Virus record (IMG/VR): IMGVR_UViG_3300049491_001001
Span: 1 to 41,470 of that record
Source: a virus
DNA: 41,470 nt
Reading direction: 5' to 3' (one strand)
A program made the translations under genes and the position numbers. Positions 1 through 41,470 of this stretch are shown here, one piece after another. Every line of letters starts with the position of its first letter. Within the stretch, counting starts at the first letter, position 1. The notes beneath the pieces were generated by a model. The model was not told where the DNA came from, did no database searches, and was given only the letters and a program-made list of their open reading frames with translations.

Positions 1-38
1 GCACCTAGGTGCACGGGGGGTCGGTCGCAGACCCCGGG
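1..38. repeat. left copy of the genome-end redundancy
   Basis: The window opens with the palindrome GCACCTAGGTGC, a G-run and TCGGTCGCAGACCCCGGG. The same order recurs at 41418-41470, where an extra GTGCAC plus G-run is inserted. GGGGTC (17-22) and GACCCC (30-35) can pair around a 7-base loop. This is either a true terminal repeat or overlap left by a circular assembly; the imperfect match fits a variable G-run. The window is therefore probably a whole genome. Confidence 0.75.
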
Positions 39-76
39 GGTGCCCTGAAACTGCGCGTATGGGCGGGGACGGGGAC

Positions 77-184
77 GCACCTCTGAAATCCGTCGATTTT
101 CTGGAAGCCCTTCAAAGTTGATCTTGAAAGAGCACCTCTGAAATCCGTCGATTTTCTGGAAGCCCTTCAAAGTTGATCTTGAAA
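77..184. repeat. tandem 53-bp direct repeat upstream of the terminase genes
   Basis: Two identical 53-base copies (77-129 and 132-184), each beginning GCACCTCTGAAATCC and ending GTTGATCTTGAAA, are separated by two bases. They are clearly more AT-rich than the surroundings and sit directly before the small terminase gene. No reading frame runs through them. Paired sites beside terminase genes are often terminase-binding sites (cosB or pac type), so a packaging role is the leading inference; a transcriptional leader role is the alternative. Confidence 0.85.
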
Positions 185-209
185 TAGACGTTCGGATAGG
201 ATCGCCCTC

Positions 210-728
210 ATGGCAGATCCACTAGGCAGAGGACGCCCACCGGGCCAGGCGCCGAACGCAGCGATCGAGTGGTACGCGAAGCGGGACGTCTGGAAGATGT
301 ACGTCGCTGGCGGGTCGTACGAAGAGATCGCCGAGAAGTACTCGATGCGGCCGGAGAAGGTCAGGTACTACGTCGGCCTGATGAAGAAGGAGTTCCTGGA
401 CACGGAGCGCGATGAGGTACGCGCTCAGCTCTTCGGTGGACTGATGGAGATGCTCGCGCTGAGCACGCAGCAGATGCGCGCCGGTGCGCAACCGATGGTC
501 TCGAACGGACGCGTGATCATCAACCCGCTGACGGGGGAGGTGGCCGATGATCACTCAGCCAGGATTAGGGCGCTCGAAGCAGGCCTGAAGGTGCATGAGC
601 GGATCTCGAAGTTGCTCGGCCTGGATGCGGCGATCAAGACAGAGGTCATCATCACGGACGAGGCACGCCAGGCCGCTCAGGAGGCTGCGGCTGCGGCAGT
701 GACCAGGTTGCACGCCATTGAAGGTTGA
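210..728 (+). CDS. terminase small subunit-like protein
   Basis: This 172-residue protein has an N-terminal helix-turn-helix-like stretch at about residues 20-60 (WKMYVAGGSYEEIAEKYS, then RPEKVRYYV), followed by an acidic helical middle and a helical C-terminus. In the family, the small subunit recognises the packaging site and delivers DNA to the large subunit. The assignment rests on the HTH, the length and the position directly upstream of, and overlapping by 11 bases with, the large terminase gene. The ATG at 210 is preceded by a weak AGGA. Sequence alone does not exclude another HTH protein. Confidence 0.72.
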   Translation: MADPLGRGRPPGQAPNAAIEWYAKRDVWKMYVAGGSYEEIAEKYSMRPEKVRYYVGLMKKEFLDTERDEVRAQLFGGLMEMLALSTQQMRAGAQPMVSNGRVIINPLTGEVADDHSARIRALEAGLKVHERISKLLGLDAAIKTEVIITDEARQAAQEAAAAAVTRLHAIEG

Positions 729-2451
729 GAAGCCACCGGGACGGCGCCCGTACCAAGGTGACCACGATCAGCCCAGCTTCCTGCGCCAGCGGAAGGAAGA
801 CGCGATCGTTGCTCGCGTGCTCGACAGGTCGGTCGTCTTCGACCGACCCCAGCCGAAGCGCACCGGTCGATGGAGCGAGCAGTGGCTCCGCGAGCTGGAC
901 AAGATCATCATCACGATCTCGGACATGCCGGATGCTCAGGCGAGCGAGACGAGACGGGTGCTGGCGAAGGATCCCATCGCATTCGCGGTGATCTATCTCA
1001 GTCATCACCTGAAGGACGATGAGGGCAAGGTGACCTTCAGTGAAGTTCACTTCGCTTGGGCTGAGATTGCCATGACCTGGGCGGCGGAGCGGTGCGAGCC
1101 GATGGAGAACCGCCACATGATCATCTCTCCGCGCGAGTCGGGCAAGAGCACGTGGTGGTTCCTGATCTTCGTGCTCTGGGCGGCGGCCAACGGCTACTCA
1201 GAGTTCACGGCGGCATTCGCCCATGCCTCGTCCCAGGCAGAGACGCACTTGCTGAGCGTCCGGCAGGAGTTCACGATGAACACTCTGCTGAAAATGGACT
1301 TCACGAAGCTGTGCACGCCGACGAAACGGAGCAGTGGGGGCTCGATAGCGGACCGAGCGGGCATGATTCATATGGCGAACGGCTTCGTACTGCTCGCCAA
1401 GGGCATAGATACGGCCATGTTGGGCATGAAAGTGGGCTCGAAACGTCCGGATCTGCTAATTCTGGACGATATCGAGCCGGATGAGGCGAATTATTCGGCA
1501 GATCAGGCACAGAAACGCCTTTCGACGGTCACGGACGCGATTTTCCCGCTGAATGTGCGTGCGCGGGTGGTCGGAGTTGGCACGGTGACCATGCCGGGCT
1601 CGATCATGCACCAGGCGGTGAAGGCAGCGAAGAATGTCGACGTTGCGGACTGGATCGCCGACGAAAAGATCAAGTGTCACTACTTCGCCCCGATCACGAT
1701 CGCCGATGACGGCGAGGAGCAGAGTGTCTGGCCCGCAAAGTGGTCATTGGACTTCCTGAAGTCGATCAGGCACACCCGCAGTTATGCCAAGAACTACGAG
1801 AACGACCCGATGGCACGGGAGGGCGTGTACTGGCTGAGAGAGGACTTCCGGTACGGCGACTTGAGTGGCTGCACCAAGACGGCACTGTTCGTCGACCCTG
1901 CGGTGACGACACGGAAGACGAGCGATTACAGCGGTCTGAGCGTGATCAGCTTCCGGCCGGCAGTGACGGAGCTGATCGAGACCGGCAGGTTCGATCCGGT
2001 GAGCAATATGCCGCTGATGAGACGGAAGGTCATCCGGCCGAGCCAGTGCGTGATCAGGTACTCGGTCGGGGTGAAGTTGACGGGACGGCATCTGCGCCAG
2101 TTCGTCATCGAACGGGTGCTGCCACAGTTCCCCGCTATCAAGCTGATCCGGGTGGAGAGCAATCAGGGCGGAGATCTCTGGCAGGACGTGTTCGCCGGGA
2201 TTCCGGGCGTGAGGTATCACCAGTTCAACAGCACCGCGAGTAAAGAGGTGCGATTCGCCGAGGCGTTGGAGTTGTGGCAGGAGCAGCGCGTCTACCACCG
2301 TCAGCGGTTCGATGCGCTGGAGGAGCAGGCGGTGGGCTTCCCGAACAGTCCGCACGACGACGTGATCGACGCGGCGGTGCAGGGAGTACGGTTCTTCCTA
2401 CTGAGCAGTAAAGCCGTTCCGGCCCGGGTCGAGAGTGAGGACTACCTGTGA
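718..2451 (+). CDS. terL: terminase large subunit
   Basis: A 577-residue DNA-packaging motor. The N-terminal ATPase shows Walker A SPRESGKST (about residues 137-145) and Walker B DLLILDDIEPDE (245-255). The C-terminal RNase H-like nuclease shows LFVDPAVTT (Asp393), RVESNQGG near 479 and the HDDVIDA acidic end near 546. All hallmark residues are present, so both ATP-driven translocation and genome cleavage should work. The start is a TTG at 718 inside the small-subunit gene; no in-frame ATG or GTG lies nearby before the conserved region. Its stop overlaps the portal start (GTGA). Confidence 0.95.
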   Translation: MKVEKPPGRRPYQGDHDQPSFLRQRKEDAIVARVLDRSVVFDRPQPKRTGRWSEQWLRELDKIIITISDMPDAQASETRRVLAKDPIAFAVIYLSHHLKDDEGKVTFSEVHFAWAEIAMTWAAERCEPMENRHMIISPRESGKSTWWFLIFVLWAAANGYSEFTAAFAHASSQAETHLLSVRQEFTMNTLLKMDFTKLCTPTKRSSGGSIADRAGMIHMANGFVLLAKGIDTAMLGMKVGSKRPDLLILDDIEPDEANYSADQAQKRLSTVTDAIFPLNVRARVVGVGTVTMPGSIMHQAVKAAKNVDVADWIADEKIKCHYFAPITIADDGEEQSVWPAKWSLDFLKSIRHTRSYAKNYENDPMAREGVYWLREDFRYGDLSGCTKTALFVDPAVTTRKTSDYSGLSVISFRPAVTELIETGRFDPVSNMPLMRRKVIRPSQCVIRYSVGVKLTGRHLRQFVIERVLPQFPAIKLIRVESNQGGDLWQDVFAGIPGVRYHQFNSTASKEVRFAEALELWQEQRVYHRQRFDALEEQAVGFPNSPHDDVIDAAVQGVRFFLLSSKAVPARVESEDYL

Positions 2452-4631: not shown

Positions 4632-4696
4632 TACCGTAACAACAGCCGATCTCGCCAGGCGTGAAGCCGGAGATCACCTCAACGCCTCGTCGGAGC

Positions 4697-6524: not shown

Positions 6525-6850
6525 ACGCCGTTCCCACTACCAAGATCTCTGTCCTGCGCGGCGAGGGCGAAACCCTCTTCGGCGACTCGGAGGACAGCGA
6601 TACAACGATCGCCACCGGCGTGCTGGCCAGCCTGCTCACGGTGAGTCGCAAGACGCGCTCTCCCGTCGATGGCCGTCCGGAGATCATCACGTACTTCACG
6701 GCCCGCGTGCCGCACGGAACCGACGTGCAGCTCGGGGACCGGGTCAAGGATGAGATCTCCGGGTCGGTCTACATCCTGACGCTCGTGGACCATGTACAGA
6801 ATCCCGTCGCACGTCAAGACGTGCGGCTTGAGCTTCACCGGGTTGCCTGA
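6521..6850 (+). CDS. head-tail stopper-like protein
   Basis: A 109-residue, mostly beta protein (TTKISVLRGEGETLFGD ... RVKDEISGSVYILTLVDHVQNP ... VRLELHRVA). Size, beta character and place between the adaptor and the tail-completion gene fit the head-closure/stopper family that plugs the filled head before tail joining. I chose ATG 6521, which overlaps the previous stop (ATGA) with AGGGG five bases upstream; an alternative GTG lies at 6515. Confidence 0.68.
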   Translation: MNAVPTTKISVLRGEGETLFGDSEDSDTTIATGVLASLLTVSRKTRSPVDGRPEIITYFTARVPHGTDVQLGDRVKDEISGSVYILTLVDHVQNPVARQDVRLELHRVA

Positions 6851-31186: not shown

Positions 31187-31975
31187 TCAGATGTCAACTG
31201 CGAGTTCGCGCTCGCGACGACGCATCGCGTTCACCGTAATCGCCACGTGCGCGAAGTACGCAGCCCGATTGATATCGAGCCCGATCATCTGGCACCGCCC
31301 CTGCCCGGCGGGAATGTGGGCGATTACTCCGGCGCGCTGATCGATGTCCGGATGGATCGGAGTGCGGGCGCCGGTCGTTACGTCGTACCGGGAGCCCCCG
31401 GCGTAGCAGGCGAGCTGCATTGCCATCGACAGGTAGTGCAACTTGCCCGTCTTCTTGTCCAGGATCATGACGCGGCCATCCCGCGTCCGGATCAGGTGAT
31501 CGAACGTCCCGGCAACGCGCAGATCGTCATTGACGATGAATATCTCGGTGTCGAGTACCTCCCAGCCGCGACGGTCCATCTCGGCGTGGTACGCCGTCAC
31601 GTCGGACTTGAAGCGCTCCGGCATCGTCGGAGGCGAGTCCGGTTCAGTGAAGCGGTGCACGGCAGTGCCCCAGTTCGCTGACTCATCCGTCTTGGCGCGC
31701 TGAAGCGCGCGTTCTATCAGGACGTCCAGATCCTTGTCCCCGTACGACAGTCCGGCGACGACGCCTGCCAGGTCTTCGTTCGTCGCGATCGACAGGGCAA
31801 CGTGCCGGGACTTCCAGATGGCAAGTCCCACGCCGTCGTCAAGCCAACCCGCGAACGTCGAGGCCCGGGTGTAGGGCACGAGCGTGCCGTCGGACTGCTT
31901 GATCAGCGGACGGTCCCACCGATCGCGCAGCAACTCTTCGGTCGGGATGTCGAAGGGGTCCGGTTCGGTGGTCAT
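31187..31975 (-). CDS. Cas4/RecB-like PD-(D/E)XK exonuclease
   Basis: A 262-residue nuclease. GTFDHLIRTRDGRVMILDKKTGK (residues 157-178) supplies the metal-binding Asp159, Asp173 and the catalytic Lys175; GTAVHRF (His107) and the late YCxx-like helices fit RecB-type folds. I do not see the four-Cys cluster of true Cas4. Such phage enzymes process DNA ends in recombination with an ssDNA-binding partner, here encoded downstream. ATG 31975 overlaps the regulator stop. Confidence 0.85.
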   Translation of the reverse strand: MTTEPDPFDIPTEELLRDRWDRPLIKQSDGTLVPYTRASTFAGWLDDGVGLAIWKSRHVALSIATNEDLAGVVAGLSYGDKDLDVLIERALQRAKTDESANWGTAVHRFTEPDSPPTMPERFKSDVTAYHAEMDRRGWEVLDTEIFIVNDDLRVAGTFDHLIRTRDGRVMILDKKTGKLHYLSMAMQLACYAGGSRYDVTTGARTPIHPDIDQRAGVIAHIPAGQGRCQMIGLDINRAAYFAHVAITVNAMRRRERELAVDI

Positions 31976-32316
31976 GCACTCTCGCCCTTCGGATTGAGCA
32001 TCGACCGCGCCAGCGTCAACGCGACCTCTGATGCGCGTATGGCTGCAATGGCACGCCGTTGAGCATCGGCCAGTGGACTCGCGACCGGATTACGGCGCTG
32101 CATGAACACGTCAAGGGACAGGCCGCTCCAGTCAGCAAGCAAGGCGATGGAGGATATGGACAGGCTGCGCCCCTGGCGCATTCGAGTGATCGACGAGGGG
32201 GCTAGTCCACCAGCCTCTGCGCACATGACGTCATCGGTCACGCCCCGGGCCGCCTGAATCGTGCCGACAGCCATGACGAACGCGCGCATGTCGAAGGGGC
32301 TCGGCTCGGTGGTCAT
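31972..32316 (-). CDS. XRE-like helix-turn-helix regulator
   Basis: A 114-residue protein. Residues ~10-68 (FVMAVGTIQAARGVTDDVMC; APSSITRMRQGRSLSISSI; LADWSGLSLDVF) have the layout of an XRE/Cro-type HTH. The C-terminal helix may dimerise. The first residues, MTTEPSPFD, nearly repeat the start of the exonuclease downstream (MTTEPDPFD). ATG 32316 shares a base with the previous stop. Confidence 0.78.
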   Translation of the reverse strand: MTTEPSPFDMRAFVMAVGTIQAARGVTDDVMCAEAGGLAPSSITRMRQGRSLSISSIALLADWSGLSLDVFMQRRNPVASPLADAQRRAIAAIRASEVALTLARSMLNPKGESA

Positions 32317-32588
32317 CAGTTCTCCGCCGTCACATGAGTGAACTTGACTGGCACCTCGATAGTTAGGATCCCGTCGACCACGGGCGAATCCCAACCGATG
32401 TCGAGGTCGACTTGAGCGATCCCCTGACCGTCTTCCCCGAAGATCGTGATGGTTCTTTTCCTGACCTCACATGGGGGCATCGATCCGCGCCATTGGCCGA
32501 TGAATCTGACGAAGCCGTCGCGGAGTCGGACATCCACGATTATGAGTTCCAGCCCGCCGACCATCATGGATCCGAGGTTGTGGCTCAT
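32316..32588 (-). CDS. small beta-rich hypothetical protein
   Basis: A 90-residue protein (LELIIVDVRLRDGFVRFIGQ; KRTITIFGEDGQGIAQVDLD; ILTIEVPVKFTHV), a beta-sheet pattern without motif. AGGGCGAGGGG precedes ATG 32588, and it overlaps the genes on both sides. Unknown function in the early leftward operon. Confidence 0.75.
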   Translation of the reverse strand: MSHNLGSMMVGGLELIIVDVRLRDGFVRFIGQWRGSMPPCEVRKRTITIFGEDGQGIAQVDLDIGWDSPVVDGILTIEVPVKFTHVTAEN

Positions 32589-33852: not shown

Positions 33853-33884
33853 CCATGATGCATTCTGGTAAGGTGCCGTGTCAA
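33853..33884 (-). promoter_or_regulatory. leftward early promoter with overlapping palindrome
   Basis: On the minus strand, TTGACA (33884-33879), 18 bases and CATCAT (33860-33855) form a sigma-70-like promoter facing the 33814 gene. CCATGATGCATTCTGG (33853-33868) is an imperfect palindrome over the -10 box, a likely operator for the divergent ribbon-helix-helix regulator. A possible rightward -10 TAAGGT at 33869-33874 would overlap it. Confidence 0.65.
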
Positions 33885-33910
33885 GCCGACCAGGAGAGAG
33901 GGGCCCGCCG

Positions 33911-34273
33911 GTGCGCTCGCTACGTAGTTCCGCCGATCCGGACCGCATCCTGGCCAGGGCGACGGACGACAACGCCACCGTGACATGCTTCCGCTGTCCG
34001 GATGACCTGTGGCATGACCTGCACGGACTCCGTGAGCGACTCGGGACGCACGGCATCTCCGGCGTAATACGGATCGTCGCCCAGATCGGCGTCATTCAAC
34101 TTCTCAGACAACTAGATGCCCAGGACGCGGGAGGCGCGACGATGATCACGATCGGAGAGAGGCTCGGGCGTGGCGATGACGCCGAGGTGGTCACGGTCGA
34201 CGAACGGCTCGATCCGCCGGTCGCGGTCACGGCGGACGATCTGGCGGCGGCCATCTCTGCGCTGCTCGCCTGA
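33911..34273 (+). CDS. ribbon-helix-helix-like DNA-binding regulator
   Basis: A 120-residue protein. ATVTCFRCPDDLWHDLHGLR then ERLGTHGISGVIRIVAQIGV is a strand followed by two helices, the pattern of RHH (CopG/Arc) regulators; the C-terminal half is an acidic helix. It diverges from the early leftward operon and leads the replication genes, so it probably controls the shared promoter region and possibly copy number. I chose GTG 33911 (GAGGGG seven bases upstream) over GTG 33878, which lacks a site. Confidence 0.7.
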   Translation: MRSLRSSADPDRILARATDDNATVTCFRCPDDLWHDLHGLRERLGTHGISGVIRIVAQIGVIQLLRQLDAQDAGGATMITIGERLGRGDDAEVVTVDERLDPPVAVTADDLAAAISALLA

Positions 34274-38791: not shown

Positions 38792-39838
38792 TCAGACATT
38801 GCTGAGCACCCTGCCCAGAGTGCTCAGGGTCTCCCGGTCTAGCTTCTCCACTCCGCCGGACATCGCCCGGCTCATGTTCCGGCTGAAGGTGTCGGACCCC
38901 CGGGCCGAGGTGAGCCAGTGGGCCTCGGTGTTCACGGCCTGAAGCACGCCGTAGGCCGTGCCGGACCATGGCGCAACCCGCTCATCCCTGCGGTAGAGCG
39001 CCGTCAGGGCGTCGCGCCGATTGCCCGCCGTGGTCCGGGCCCGACCGGGTTCGTCCGGCACCGGGGCGACCTCGTCCAGGAATGCGAACCACTGCCGGTC
39101 CGTTACCGTGACGGCGCACAGTGCCTTCACCTGAGCGGAGAAGTCGTCCGCGATGCTCTCCAGCACCCCGAGCGCCTGCCGGGCGTCCGTCAGGCGAAGC
39201 GCCGAGTAGCGCGTGTGCTTGATCCGGAACTCGGCCCCGGACTCGCCGAGCGCCGCTGTGCACGTGTTGTCGCAGACGACGACGGTGACCACGCGCTTGT
39301 AGGTGGTCGGGATCGTTCCGTCGTGCGAGCTGACGGCCAGCAGGTGGGGCCGAATGTCAACGCCCTCCGGGGTGGTCAGCGTCTCGGGCGTCTCGATCTG
39401 TACCCACGCTTTCGCCCCGCCGTCCAGCAGGCCCGCAGATCCGATCTGGACCGAGTCGCCCAGGATCGTGCTCACGTTGCGGAGCAGGCCGTCGGAATAC
39501 TCGTGCACCCCGTACCGGGCGGAGTGCACGCCGAGCACCGCTCCGGTGTCGGACCGGAGCAGCACCTTGCGGCTCGGATCGGTCACGGTCCGGACCGGCG
39601 TGCCGTCGGGCGCCATGCCGGTCGCTTCGGTCAGGTCGGCCGGTACCTGCGCCAGCACGGGCGAGGTGACGACGCGCCAGCCGAAGAGCCGTTCGACAGC
39701 GCCGAACGGCACCGCGCCGTCGAAGTGATTGCCCTCTCCGATCTGGTGTTCGGCCACGTAGTGCCAGGCCTTGCCGCGCTTGTCGGTGAAGCCGATCAGG
39801 GTCTGGGTGTTCAGGTCGAGCATGCTCTGACGGGACAT
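38792..39838 (-). CDS. DUF932 / phage-plasmid-like protein
   Basis: A 348-residue protein. SRQSMLDLNTQTLIGFTDKR, RVVTSPVLAQVP, GVHSARYGVHEYSDGLLRNV, VVTVVVCDNTCTAALGE and IKHTRYSALRLTDARQALGV are typical of the DUF932 family, widespread on phages and plasmids, of unconfirmed biochemical role. ATG 39838 has AAGGAGAAGG upstream; an upstream in-frame start at 39874 is less likely. The promoter region carries a CRP-like site. Confidence 0.87.
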   Translation of the reverse strand: MSRQSMLDLNTQTLIGFTDKRGKAWHYVAEHQIGEGNHFDGAVPFGAVERLFGWRVVTSPVLAQVPADLTEATGMAPDGTPVRTVTDPSRKVLLRSDTGAVLGVHSARYGVHEYSDGLLRNVSTILGDSVQIGSAGLLDGGAKAWVQIETPETLTTPEGVDIRPHLLAVSSHDGTIPTTYKRVVTVVVCDNTCTAALGESGAEFRIKHTRYSALRLTDARQALGVLESIADDFSAQVKALCAVTVTDRQWFAFLDEVAPVPDEPGRARTTAGNRRDALTALYRRDERVAPWSGTAYGVLQAVNTEAHWLTSARGSDTFSRNMSRAMSGGVEKLDRETLSTLGRVLSNV

Positions 39839-39876: not shown

Positions 39877-39882
39877 ACCCTA
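39877..39882 (-). promoter_or_regulatory. -10 box of the DUF932 gene promoter
   Basis: On the minus strand TAGGGT fits the actinobacterial TAGNNT -10. It sits in AATCCACCTAGGGTGAT, which recurs as AATCCACCTAGGTTGAT at the 41309 promoter. No good -35 lies 17-18 bases upstream, suggesting activator dependence; the CRP-like site at 39929-39944 is centred about 66 bases before the expected start. Confidence 0.6.
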
Positions 39883-39928
39883 GGTGGATTGCAGGATGGT
39901 GCGTGCTCATCTGGGCAGGTTTCCGGTG

Positions 39929-39944
39929 TGACGAGCGTCACACC
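39929..39944. promoter_or_regulatory. CRP/GlxR-like site 1
   Basis: TGTGACGAGCGTCACA matches the TGTGA-N6-TCACA consensus exactly, inside a 9-bp arm palindrome (39927-39946). It lies upstream of the DUF932 promoter in the 193-base gap between the 39838 and 40274 genes. Confidence 0.65.
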
Positions 39945-39973: not shown

Positions 39974-40012
39974 GAAAAAGTCTTAACCTAAGGTTTAGGG
40001 TTAGACTTTTTC
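39974..40012. terminator. bidirectional intrinsic terminator
   Basis: GAAAAAGTCT (39974-39983) pairs with AGACTTTTTC (40003-40012); after a bulge AACC pairs with GGTT. T-runs end the stem on both strands, and it lies 20 bases past the stop of the leftward 40274 gene, so it should end that small operon. Confidence 0.85.
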
Positions 40013-40031: not shown

Positions 40032-40274
40032 TCAGATCCATTCTGAACAGGCCTCGCAGCGCTCGGAATGGTCATCCTGTGCGAATCTTGTGTCGATGAT
40101 GTCGTCAGGATAGGAACCGTTCCACTGCGAGACGATGTCGTCCGGTTCCATGTCGCGAGCTGCTGGCGAAAGCGTTCCGAGATGGATGTGAACCCAGACG
40201 AAACAGGAGATGTGATAGGTCCGATCGCCGACGTACGGCGATCGGCCTTCCATCGTGATGATTTCGTCGCTCAC
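40032..40274 (-). CDS. small hypothetical protein
   Basis: An 80-residue protein (SDEIITMEGRSPYVGDRTYH; CFVWVHIHLGTLSPAARDME; ERCEACSEWI) with a CxxC pair at the C-terminus and a His-rich middle. GTG 40274 overlaps the preceding stop (GTGA), which fixes the start over an ATG at 40295. Unknown function; last gene of the right-end leftward operon. Confidence 0.75.
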   Translation of the reverse strand: MSDEIITMEGRSPYVGDRTYHISCFVWVHIHLGTLSPAARDMEPDDIVSQWNGSYPDDIIDTRFAQDDHSERCEACSEWI

Positions 40275-40465
40275 TCGTCGTATCCCCCGTCCCATCCTCC
40301 GGGCGAGTAGTCGTGCCAGGCTCGCCAGCCGAAATCGGCGATCACTCCGGCCCGGAAGGCCGCGTAGGCTGCCGCACTCGGCTGCTCAGTTCCGCCGTCC
40401 GGGTCCCGGGCCTCGATCGCCCTGAGGATGGCCGGATCGGTCTGGACGGCATCGTTGCGGCTCAT
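40271..40465 (-). CDS. small acidic hypothetical protein
   Basis: A 64-residue protein (SRNDAVQTDPAILRAIEARD; AAAYAAFRAGVIADFGWRAW; HDYSPGGWDGGYDE), helical with an acidic, aromatic tail. ATG 40465 overlaps the previous stop (ATGA). No family recognised. Confidence 0.72.
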   Translation of the reverse strand: MSRNDAVQTDPAILRAIEARDPDGGTEQPSAAAYAAFRAGVIADFGWRAWHDYSPGGWDGGYDE

Positions 40466-40728
40466 GCCCTGTCCTCCTCACCGGAGCTGAACCGCCAGGT
40501 ACTCACCGGCGCCCGGAGCGCCGCCTGGTCCTCCTCACCGGAGATGACCAGCAGGCGGCGCAGTTCGTCCAGCGTGCCGCCCGGCAGGGAGTCCCGGAGC
40601 GTGTCGTGCAGGAGCCTGGCCTCGTCCTTGGCAGACCAGCCATCCCAGAACGTGCTGAGTTCCATGTGCGGTGCGAGCTCGATCGTGGCGCCCGGACGAG
40701 TCCAAGCGGCTCGGATGGTGATGTTCAT
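40462..40728 (-). CDS. small hypothetical protein
   Basis: An 88-residue acidic protein (NITIRAAWTRPGATIELAPH; STFWDGWSAKDEARLLHDTL; GTLDELRRLLVISGEED). It repeats SGEED twice near its C-terminus. ATG 40728; an AAGGA lies about 12 bases upstream. It follows a long hairpin that separates it from the 41101 gene. Confidence 0.72.
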   Translation of the reverse strand: MNITIRAAWTRPGATIELAPHMELSTFWDGWSAKDEARLLHDTLRDSLPGGTLDELRRLLVISGEEDQAALRAPVSTWRFSSGEEDRA

Positions 40729-40828: not shown

Positions 40829-41101
40829 TCAGGCGAAGGTGATCCGGGCCGCGTTGAGTGTGTCCCAATAGCGGCACCAATCACTGAAGCTGACGGCTGC
40901 AGTGTTCTGTGCCAGAGCTTCGCTGATTCGGCCGACGGTGTCGGTGGTGATCAGGCCGAGCTTCTCATTCGCCGCGAGGAACCGGCCGAGTCCGCCGTAG
41001 AAATCCTCGTCGATGACGGTGGCGACGTAGGCCATGGCGCGCTCGGTCAGGCTGGCCGGCACGCCGGTGATGGTGAGCGTCTCGCTCGTGAGCTGGCTCA
41101 T
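40829..41101 (-). CDS. small hypothetical protein, first gene of the right-end operon
   Basis: A 90-residue protein (TSETLTITGVPASLTERAMA; VIDEDFYGGLGRFLAANEKL; ALAQNTAAVSFSDWCRYWDT), probably alpha-helical after a short strand. ATG 41101 has AAGGAAGGAACC upstream. It is first after the promoter at 41309-41338, with an about 200-base leader that contains the parS palindrome. Confidence 0.75.
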   Translation of the reverse strand: MSQLTSETLTITGVPASLTERAMAYVATVIDEDFYGGLGRFLAANEKLGLITTDTVGRISEALAQNTAAVSFSDWCRYWDTLNAARITFA

Positions 41102-41138
41102 GGTGGGTGGTTCCTTCCTTGGTCGGGGGCTGCAGCAC

Positions 41139-41168
41139 CGGCCCTTGTTTCACGTGAAACAAGGGCCG
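41139..41168. promoter_or_regulatory. perfect parS (ParB-binding) site in a 30-bp palindrome
   Basis: TGTTTCACGTGAAACA at 41146-41161 is exactly the bacterial chromosomal parS consensus, including the GTTTCACGTGAAAC core used in actinobacteria. The symmetry continues outward (CGGCCCT/AGGGCCG) to 30 perfect bases. No ParA or ParB is encoded in the window, so any partner would come from the host. Confidence 0.85.
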
Positions 41169-41308
41169 CTCCGGGGGACAGGGACATGTCGACCTGGTTC
41201 TAGCCCCGGTACCGGTAGAAGTCTGGCGACCGGAGGGTGGGGGCCGATGGTGCTGGCCTGCCCTGCGATCGCGGCTCTCTCGACCGGTGTTGCTGTGGTG
41301 CTGGTATC

Positions 41309-41338
41309 AACCTAGGTGGATTCGGTGATTGGTGTCAA
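41309..41338 (-). promoter_or_regulatory. leftward promoter of the right-end operon
   Basis: On the minus strand TTGACA (41338-41333), 18 bases and TAGGTT (41314-41309) form a good promoter. The -10 overlaps ACCTAGGT (41310-41317), also found at 39877-39890 and at both genome ends. The CRP-like site at 41360-41375 is centred about 65 bases upstream of the expected start. Confidence 0.72.
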
Positions 41339-41359
41339 GTCAGATGTGGTGATGAGTAG

Positions 41360-41375
41360 TGTGACGTACATCACA
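41360..41375. promoter_or_regulatory. CRP/GlxR-like site 2, between divergent promoters
   Basis: TGTGACGTACATCACA matches TGTGA-N6-TCACA exactly. It lies between the leftward promoter (41309-41338) and the rightward promoter (41388-41416), so one bound regulator could act on both. Confidence 0.68.
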
Positions 41376-41387
41376 GTGATGGTGAGC

Positions 41388-41416
41388 TTGACAGAGTGAT
41401 GGTGATGGACTAGTGT
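41388..41416 (+). promoter_or_regulatory. rightward promoter reading across the genome end to the terminase genes
   Basis: TTGACA (41388-41393), exactly 17 bases, and TAGTGT (41411-41416) make a strong actinobacterial promoter. The expected start, near 41423, is the centre of the palindrome TGCACCTAGGTGCA (41417-41430). If the ends are joined, transcription enters the terminase and structural block. Confidence 0.78.
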
Positions 41417-41430
41417 TGCACCTAGGTGCA
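41417..41430. promoter_or_regulatory. 14-bp palindromic operator candidate at the start site
   Basis: TGCACCTAGGTGCA is perfectly symmetric and centred on the expected transcription start of the rightward promoter. The same ACCTAGG core covers the -10 boxes of the two leftward right-end promoters, so one regulator may read all three. Confidence 0.65.
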
Positions 41431-41470
41431 CGGGGGGCGTGCACGGGGGGGGTCGGTCGCAGACCCCGGG
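41418..41470. repeat. right copy of the genome-end redundancy
   Basis: This repeats the first 38 bases of the window with an inserted CGTGCAC plus G-run, giving two GTGCAC-G-run units and an eight-G stretch. The difference may be real, or it may be a sequencing problem in poly-G. Confidence 0.75.

Follow-up and report, generated by a model that had tools for sequence, protein, structure and literature searches.

The right end of the uncultured phage genome in record IMGVR_UViG_3300049491_001001 is probably a control region with divergent promoters that responds to the cAMP receptor protein of the host (Crp/GlxR). The window, by which we mean the whole stretch of 41,470 bases analysed, is one whole virus record with a GC content of 0.65. 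Its plus-strand structural genes (terminase, portal, and capsid) run from the left end, and the early genes lie further right. In the mechanism proposed here, host CRP would bind two perfect CRP-type sites, at 41360 and 39927, and would tune an operon headed by a 90-aa protein, a DUF932 unit, and a rightward unit that runs across a cos-like junction into the terminase and structural genes. The placement of these motifs by early and structural gene promoters suggests that the phage senses the nutritional state of its host, and the likely outcome would be that host nutrition sets the timing or the strength of early versus late expression. While control of the right end by host CRP is judged probable, the full reading, with host CRP/GlxR bound at both sites and tuning the two leftward units along with the rightward structural unit, we hold to be slightly likelier right than wrong.

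Two promoters face away from each other at the right end. The rightward promoter, P_R (41388..41416, plus strand), is made up of TTGACA at 41388-41393, a 17-nt spacer, and TAGTGT at 41411-41416, with an expected start near 41423. The leftward promoter, P_L2 (41309..41338, minus strand), has TTGACA at 41338-41333, an 18-nt spacer, and TAGGTT at 41314-41309, with an expected start near 41302. Between them lies the perfect CRP/GlxR-type site TGTGACGTACATCACA (41360..41375), which also matches the GlxR form TGTGANNTANNTCACA. The sequence-only reading had described divergent promoters with good -10 and -35 boxes flanking a CRP-type site, and all of these elements are found where it placed them. Counting both strands, the window contains only three strict matches to TTGACA-16..18-TANNNT, two of these being P_L2 and P_R, and in 1000 dinucleotide shuffles of 41102-41470 one strict promoter appeared in four and two appeared in none. 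The third strict promoter, TTGACA-17-TAGTGT at 31197 on the minus strand, has a -10 box identical to that of P_R.

A second perfect CRP-type site, TGTGACGAGCGTCACA (39927..39942), was overlooked in the sequence-only reading. It is located 5' of the leftward DUF932 gene, and its palindrome extends 3 bp further on each side. The window thus holds two perfect copies of TGTGA-N6-TCACA against 0.025 expected under a first-order Markov model. Both are intergenic, in two stretches totalling 506 nt, where 0.0003-0.0012 copies would be expected. The 41360 site is found 5' of recognisable promoters, while the promoter at the 39927 site, P_L1, is known only through a -10 motif in common with P_L2. This -10 box, TAGGGT (39877..39882, minus strand), has no recognisable -35, and the gene behind it encodes a DUF932 protein (38792..39838, minus strand, start at 39838; PHROG 1221). 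The sequence AATCCACCTAGGGTGAT at P_L1 is nearly identical to AATCCACCTAGGTTGAT at P_L2, the two having the word AATCCACCTAGGKTGAT in common, and a common 16-mer with at most two mismatches was reached in 6 of 300 shuffles. From the centre of the CRP site to the base at which the -10 box begins (the -12 base), the distances are 52.5 and 53.5 nt at the two leftward promoters. Together, the common 16-mer and the equal CRP spacing argue for two leftward promoters built on one plan.

The unit behind P_L2 begins with a leader of about 200 nt. This is followed by the operon head, a gene for a 90-aa protein (40829..41101, minus strand) with no match among the relatives, and by small open reading frames at 40462-40728, 40271-40465, and 40032-40295 (40032..40728 overall, minus strand), whose starts were picked by eye. 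A hairpin at 39974..40012, preceded by an A-run and followed by a T-run, was read by eye and missed by the pattern scan; it is likely a bidirectional terminator that ends the P_L2 unit and separates the two leftward units. A 29-codon open reading frame (41098-41187, minus strand), which spans the parS palindrome discussed below and whose stop overlaps the start of the 90-aa gene (ATGA), is possibly a leader peptide.

No Crp-type HTH domain was found in the window, so the likely reader of the sites is the CRP/GlxR protein of the host. Relative to the expected starts, the sites are centred at about -55.5 for the rightward promoter and at -65.5/-64.5 for the leftward ones, and centres at about -55.5, -64.5, and -65.5 fall outside the classical activator positions of Escherichia coli. 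Promoters with consensus -35 boxes require no activator. Of the three promoters, P_L1 would be the likeliest to be activated since it has no -35, and P_L2 and P_R, with their consensus -35 boxes, may be modulated or repressed instead.

The motif can be compared with those of characterized CRP-family proteins. According to the accessible part of PMC4218801, mycobacterial Crp recognises TGTGA-N6-TCACA and activates M. smegmatis ahpC from a site centred at -81.5; the consensus is identical to that in the window, but ahpC is a chromosomal gene, with tested binding and another distance from the start. The consensus of GlxR from Corynebacterium glutamicum is given as TGTGANNTANNTCACA in the available portion of PMC4254451, and the 41360 site matches this form, although the consensus is corynebacterial and may not be that of the window's host. 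Streptomyces Crp has the consensus GTG(N)6GNCAC in the excerpted text of PMC10033298; the 39927 site matches it, as does the 41360 site when read on the minus strand, with the same caution that it may not apply to the window's host.

That host is likely actinobacterial. The nearest large terminases in the phage collection, at 36-45%, come from Microbacterium phages, Streptomyces phages, and Streptomyces satellites, and the best IMG/VR match reaches 65% over a part of the protein; the right end gave no match by blastn against phages. Bases 1-38 of the window match its last 53 bases once a 15-nt internal duplication is set aside. A putative cos-like end region (1..60, plus strand) has a GACCCCCGGGGGTGCCC-like core in common with a relative, L396. 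Two 55-nt tandem repeats with AAGTTGATCTTG follow at 77..186 (plus strand); L396 carries AAGTTGATCTTG too, in the interval from its cos-like site to TerS, and the repeats are probably terminase-binding repeats. The junction would then be made up of cos and terminase-binding repeats. The first gene 3' of P_R is the probable small terminase (210..728, plus strand; PHROG 645, labelled Rnase E), followed by the large terminase (718..2451, plus strand). In L396 (terminase 61%), the helicase end, right-end region, TerS, and TerL are contiguous in one piece, which argues that the two ends of the window adjoin and that P_R faces the terminase. The earlier proposal that this region controls entry into the structural genes gains support from this gene order. 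Since the ends adjoin in this way, P_R would reach the structural genes only via a closed or concatemeric genome.

The sequence-only reading went further and described a two-input switch, in which host CRP is joined by a phage repressor that reads ACCTAGGT. This word is indeed located over the leftward -10 and at the expected rightward start, as had been claimed. One copy covers the -10 box of P_L2 (41310..41317, within AATCCACCTAGGTTGAT on the minus strand), and another lies at the expected start of P_R (41420..41427), inside the 12-bp palindrome GCACCTAGGTGC. The related CCCTAGGT covers the -10 box of P_L1 (39878..39885, within AATCCACCTAGGGTGAT on the minus strand). A third exact copy of ACCTAGGT at the window start (3..10) is probably the 41420 site again, as the window start nearly repeats its end. 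Repeated copies over phage promoters are what a repressor operator would present, and through ACCTAGGT a phage protein may be able to turn off both P_L2 and P_R.

The rival that fares best gives the word a humbler role. Here ACCTAGGT is mere context of actinobacterial -10 boxes of the TANNNT type (TAGGTT and TAGGGT), and the right-end copy belongs to the palindromic DNA close to cos; no phage repressor exists, and CRP is the single input. Two copies do coincide with the leftward -10 boxes. The core CCTAGG is not enriched in the window (5 observed and 5.0 expected), and enrichment of ACCTAGGT with at most one mismatch is mild (13 copies against a shuffle mean of 7.1, with 13 reached in 4 of 100 shuffles). 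No exact copy occurs in the loci of 93 relatives, and none with at most one mismatch lies between 26166 and 39877, the region of the candidate regulator genes. These candidates are an XRE-like protein recognised by eye (31972..32334, minus strand), with no family match, and an RHH-like protein (33878..34273, plus strand), with a very weak Arc-like PHROG match; neither gene has a copy beside it. The structural model of the RHH-like candidate shows the strand-helix-helix order typical of RHH proteins, and that of the XRE-like candidate a set of helices, both at low confidence; with pLDDT values of 42 and 45, neither model was reliable enough to be used in a fold search. Two observations speak against mere context: the shared word AATCCACCTAGGKTGAT runs past the -10 box in both directions, and the copy on the right coincides with a start site instead of a -10 and forms a 12-bp palindrome, which leaves room for the operator reading. 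We give an even chance to the pair of statements that ACCTAGGT is context and CRP the single input, and a second, repressor input is about as likely to be absent as present. The switch as first described survives in its CRP half, which is strengthened by the 39927 site, by the lack of a phage Crp-type HTH domain, and by sites in Woesvirus and Zukovirus. Its repressor half is weak, with ACCTAGGT missing from the 93 relatives' loci and from the neighbourhood of the candidate regulator genes, and with two of its copies coinciding with TANNNT-type -10 boxes.

Perfect CRP sites recur in other phages. In 23 named actinophage records scanned whole, six contain them (five Woesvirus records with two each and KimJongPhill with one), all at no more than about 3.1 kb from the right end; the reversed-pattern control also matched, with single hits in two records. 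KimJongPhill's relative Zuko, added to the comparison for that kinship, has one perfect site too. Woesvirus, KimJongPhill, and Zuko resemble the window in that the stretch from the last leftward gene to the right end of the genome contains a perfect TGTGA-N6-TCACA. They differ from it in that no TTGACA/TANNNT pair was seen beside the sites and no ACCTAGGT was found in L017, L387, and L388, and so the promoter geometry is not common across lineages. When the site of Woes is compared with that of Damp, two of six spacer positions and none of ten arm positions differ; between KimJongPhill and Zuko, one of six spacer and none of ten arm positions differ, and the flanks are identical at 77 and 84 of 100 positions. 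For the Woesvirus and Zukovirus pairs combined, the contrast between arm and spacer changes gives a Fisher p of 0.044. The value falls to 0.0015 when the loci L424 and L427 are included, but arm conservation there is biased because both loci were found by the motif itself.

The terminase relatives form a set of 93 loci, 80 viral and 13 from genomes, after the distant L489 and L490 were dropped from 15 genome loci. They contain three perfect CRP sites, confined to L424 and L427; all three are in the 343 kb upstream of TerL, none is in the 547 kb downstream, and three control motifs had no match on either side. With one mismatch allowed, the upstream bias of TGTGA is no greater than that of TGATG or TGGTA in a half-site permutation control, in which loci with less than 200 nt upstream were omitted from the upstream side. 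Among whole records of the relatives (49 of the 80 viral loci), 2 of 49 contain a perfect site, which makes the trait sporadic, though recurrent. No close relative of the window that keeps the site was found among the relatives examined. A count of 7 in 14 records with the motif is no evidence, as 7 of the 14 were chosen for it.

A wider scan of IMG/VR gave at least 120 matches to the CRP motif and 110 to a permuted control, so the counts are uninformative and the intergenic share alone differs. That share was compared over 80 loci each for motif and control, using a crude open reading frame model and an imperfect control. In contigs with a GC content of at least 0.55, CRP sites were intergenic in 10 of 26 of the matches listed (2.0 expected) versus 0 of 8 for the permuted control; at a GC content of 0.45-0.55, one permuted control was intergenic in 8 of 22 of the matches listed (1.1 expected). 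A PHROG scan of two genes beside the sites of the IMG/VR contig L058 found no match.

The sites themselves could have another origin. The CRP-like palindromes could be parts of intergenic hairpins, serving as terminators or processing sites with no protein involved, an idea we regard as unlikely. In its favour, pairing at the 39927 site continues outward until each arm of the palindrome measures 10 bp, the Woes site at 4693 has five further pairs, and 9 of 10 outer positions pair at the L058 site at 1034. Little outer pairing is seen, however, at the 41360 site, at the Zukovirus sites, or at the L058 sites at 1464 and 1495, and the Woes site at 6708 has 6 of 10 outer pairs but only one in a row. 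These weakly paired sites are located in divergent or upstream regions, and neither window site is followed by a T-run. In three unrelated contigs (L017 at 4693, L058 at 1034, and the window at 39927), one CRP-type site is embedded in the middle of a longer intergenic palindrome, and in each this site is accompanied by a plain one in an upstream or divergent region.

A shade less probable still is that a phage regulator of another family reads TGTGA-N6-TCACA and that the likeness to CRP is convergent. The window does encode several unassigned small proteins in addition to the two HTH/RHH-like candidates. Against this stand the lack of a Crp-type HTH in the phage and the presence of the motif in Gordonia and Streptomyces phages, for which the common factor is the CRP family of the host; the small right-end genes of the window have no match in the regions of those phages examined. 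Chance is very improbable despite the sporadic distribution of sites among the relatives (2 of 49 records), given their excess over expectation in the window, their intergenic location, and their matched spacing. Binding by host CRP/GlxR is the reading we prefer.

A further host-related motif is found in the P_L2 leader, some 40 nt ahead of the gene for the 90-aa protein. This is a 28-bp perfect palindrome (41140..41167) that contains the canonical parS 16-mer TGTTTCACGTGAAACA and is thus of the chromosomal type (consensus as given in the accessible part of PMC10197239). Perfect parS 14-mers are present in 9 of the 23 named actinophage records and a reversed control in 0 of 23; Orchid has two, five Woesvirus records two each, JasmineDragon six, and Metamorphoo and ClearAsMud one each. 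Among these five lineages, each represented by one record, only Metamorphoo and ClearAsMud have ParB_N. In Orchid (L016, 3970-5210), intergenic palindromes framed by TTGAATCCATCGCTAG and CTARGGTTGATTCA lie before small leftward genes. We take these palindromes to resemble the start-associated repeats of cluster K mycobacteriophages.

In IMG/VR, the parS 14-mer and the control GTTTCAGCTGAAAC had at least 120 matches each, and 80 loci of each were compared (L252-L331 versus L494-L573). Among the matches listed, two or more 14-mers occurred in 10 of 80 parS loci and in 0 of 80 control loci, and 31 of 98 parS sites were intergenic as against 1 of 80 control sites. In both the window phage and Woesvirus, the leftward gene block at the right end contains perfect CRP sites together with perfect parS sites of the chromosomal type; as far as tested, the two have no small right-end genes in common, and no Crp or ParB could be recognised among the proteins of either phage. 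From these motifs, the right-end region could be imagined to gather landing sites of host CRP (nutrition) and host ParB (chromosome segregation) as timing inputs for the phage, which we consider doubtful. The full-text literature, including the available portions of PMC7157519 and PMC10197239, yielded no report of phages relying on host ParB; the phage parS sites described in those portions belong to phage-encoded systems, such as the 8-bp repeats of RedRock.

The nearest known case of CRP control in a phage is coliphage T1, in which cAMP-CRP of E. coli represses the pir, dam, and recE promoters, according to the accessible text of PMC6737242. The likeness lies in host CRP acting on phage promoters, which couples phage expression to the carbon state of the host. 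T1, as presented in that text, is an enterobacterial phage with a prophage state and demonstrated CRP repression, whereas the window phage is probably actinobacterial, has no integrase that could be found, and is known from sequence evidence only. A temperate lysogeny switch was considered for the right end and ruled against, as the window has no match to tyrosine or serine integrases (PF00589, PF00239) or to the ParB_N domain (PF02195). With no integrase found, the region reads as an early-late timing device and not as a lysogeny decision. Searches of the open full-text literature, which lacks most subscription papers, turned up no account of CRP/GlxR sites at the promoters of actinophages. 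The proposal is directly testable in cultured phages, namely Woesvirus on Gordonia terrae and Zuko or KimJongPhill on Streptomyces. If it is right, some actinobacterial phages would, like coliphage T1, use host cAMP to time their early and structural expression.
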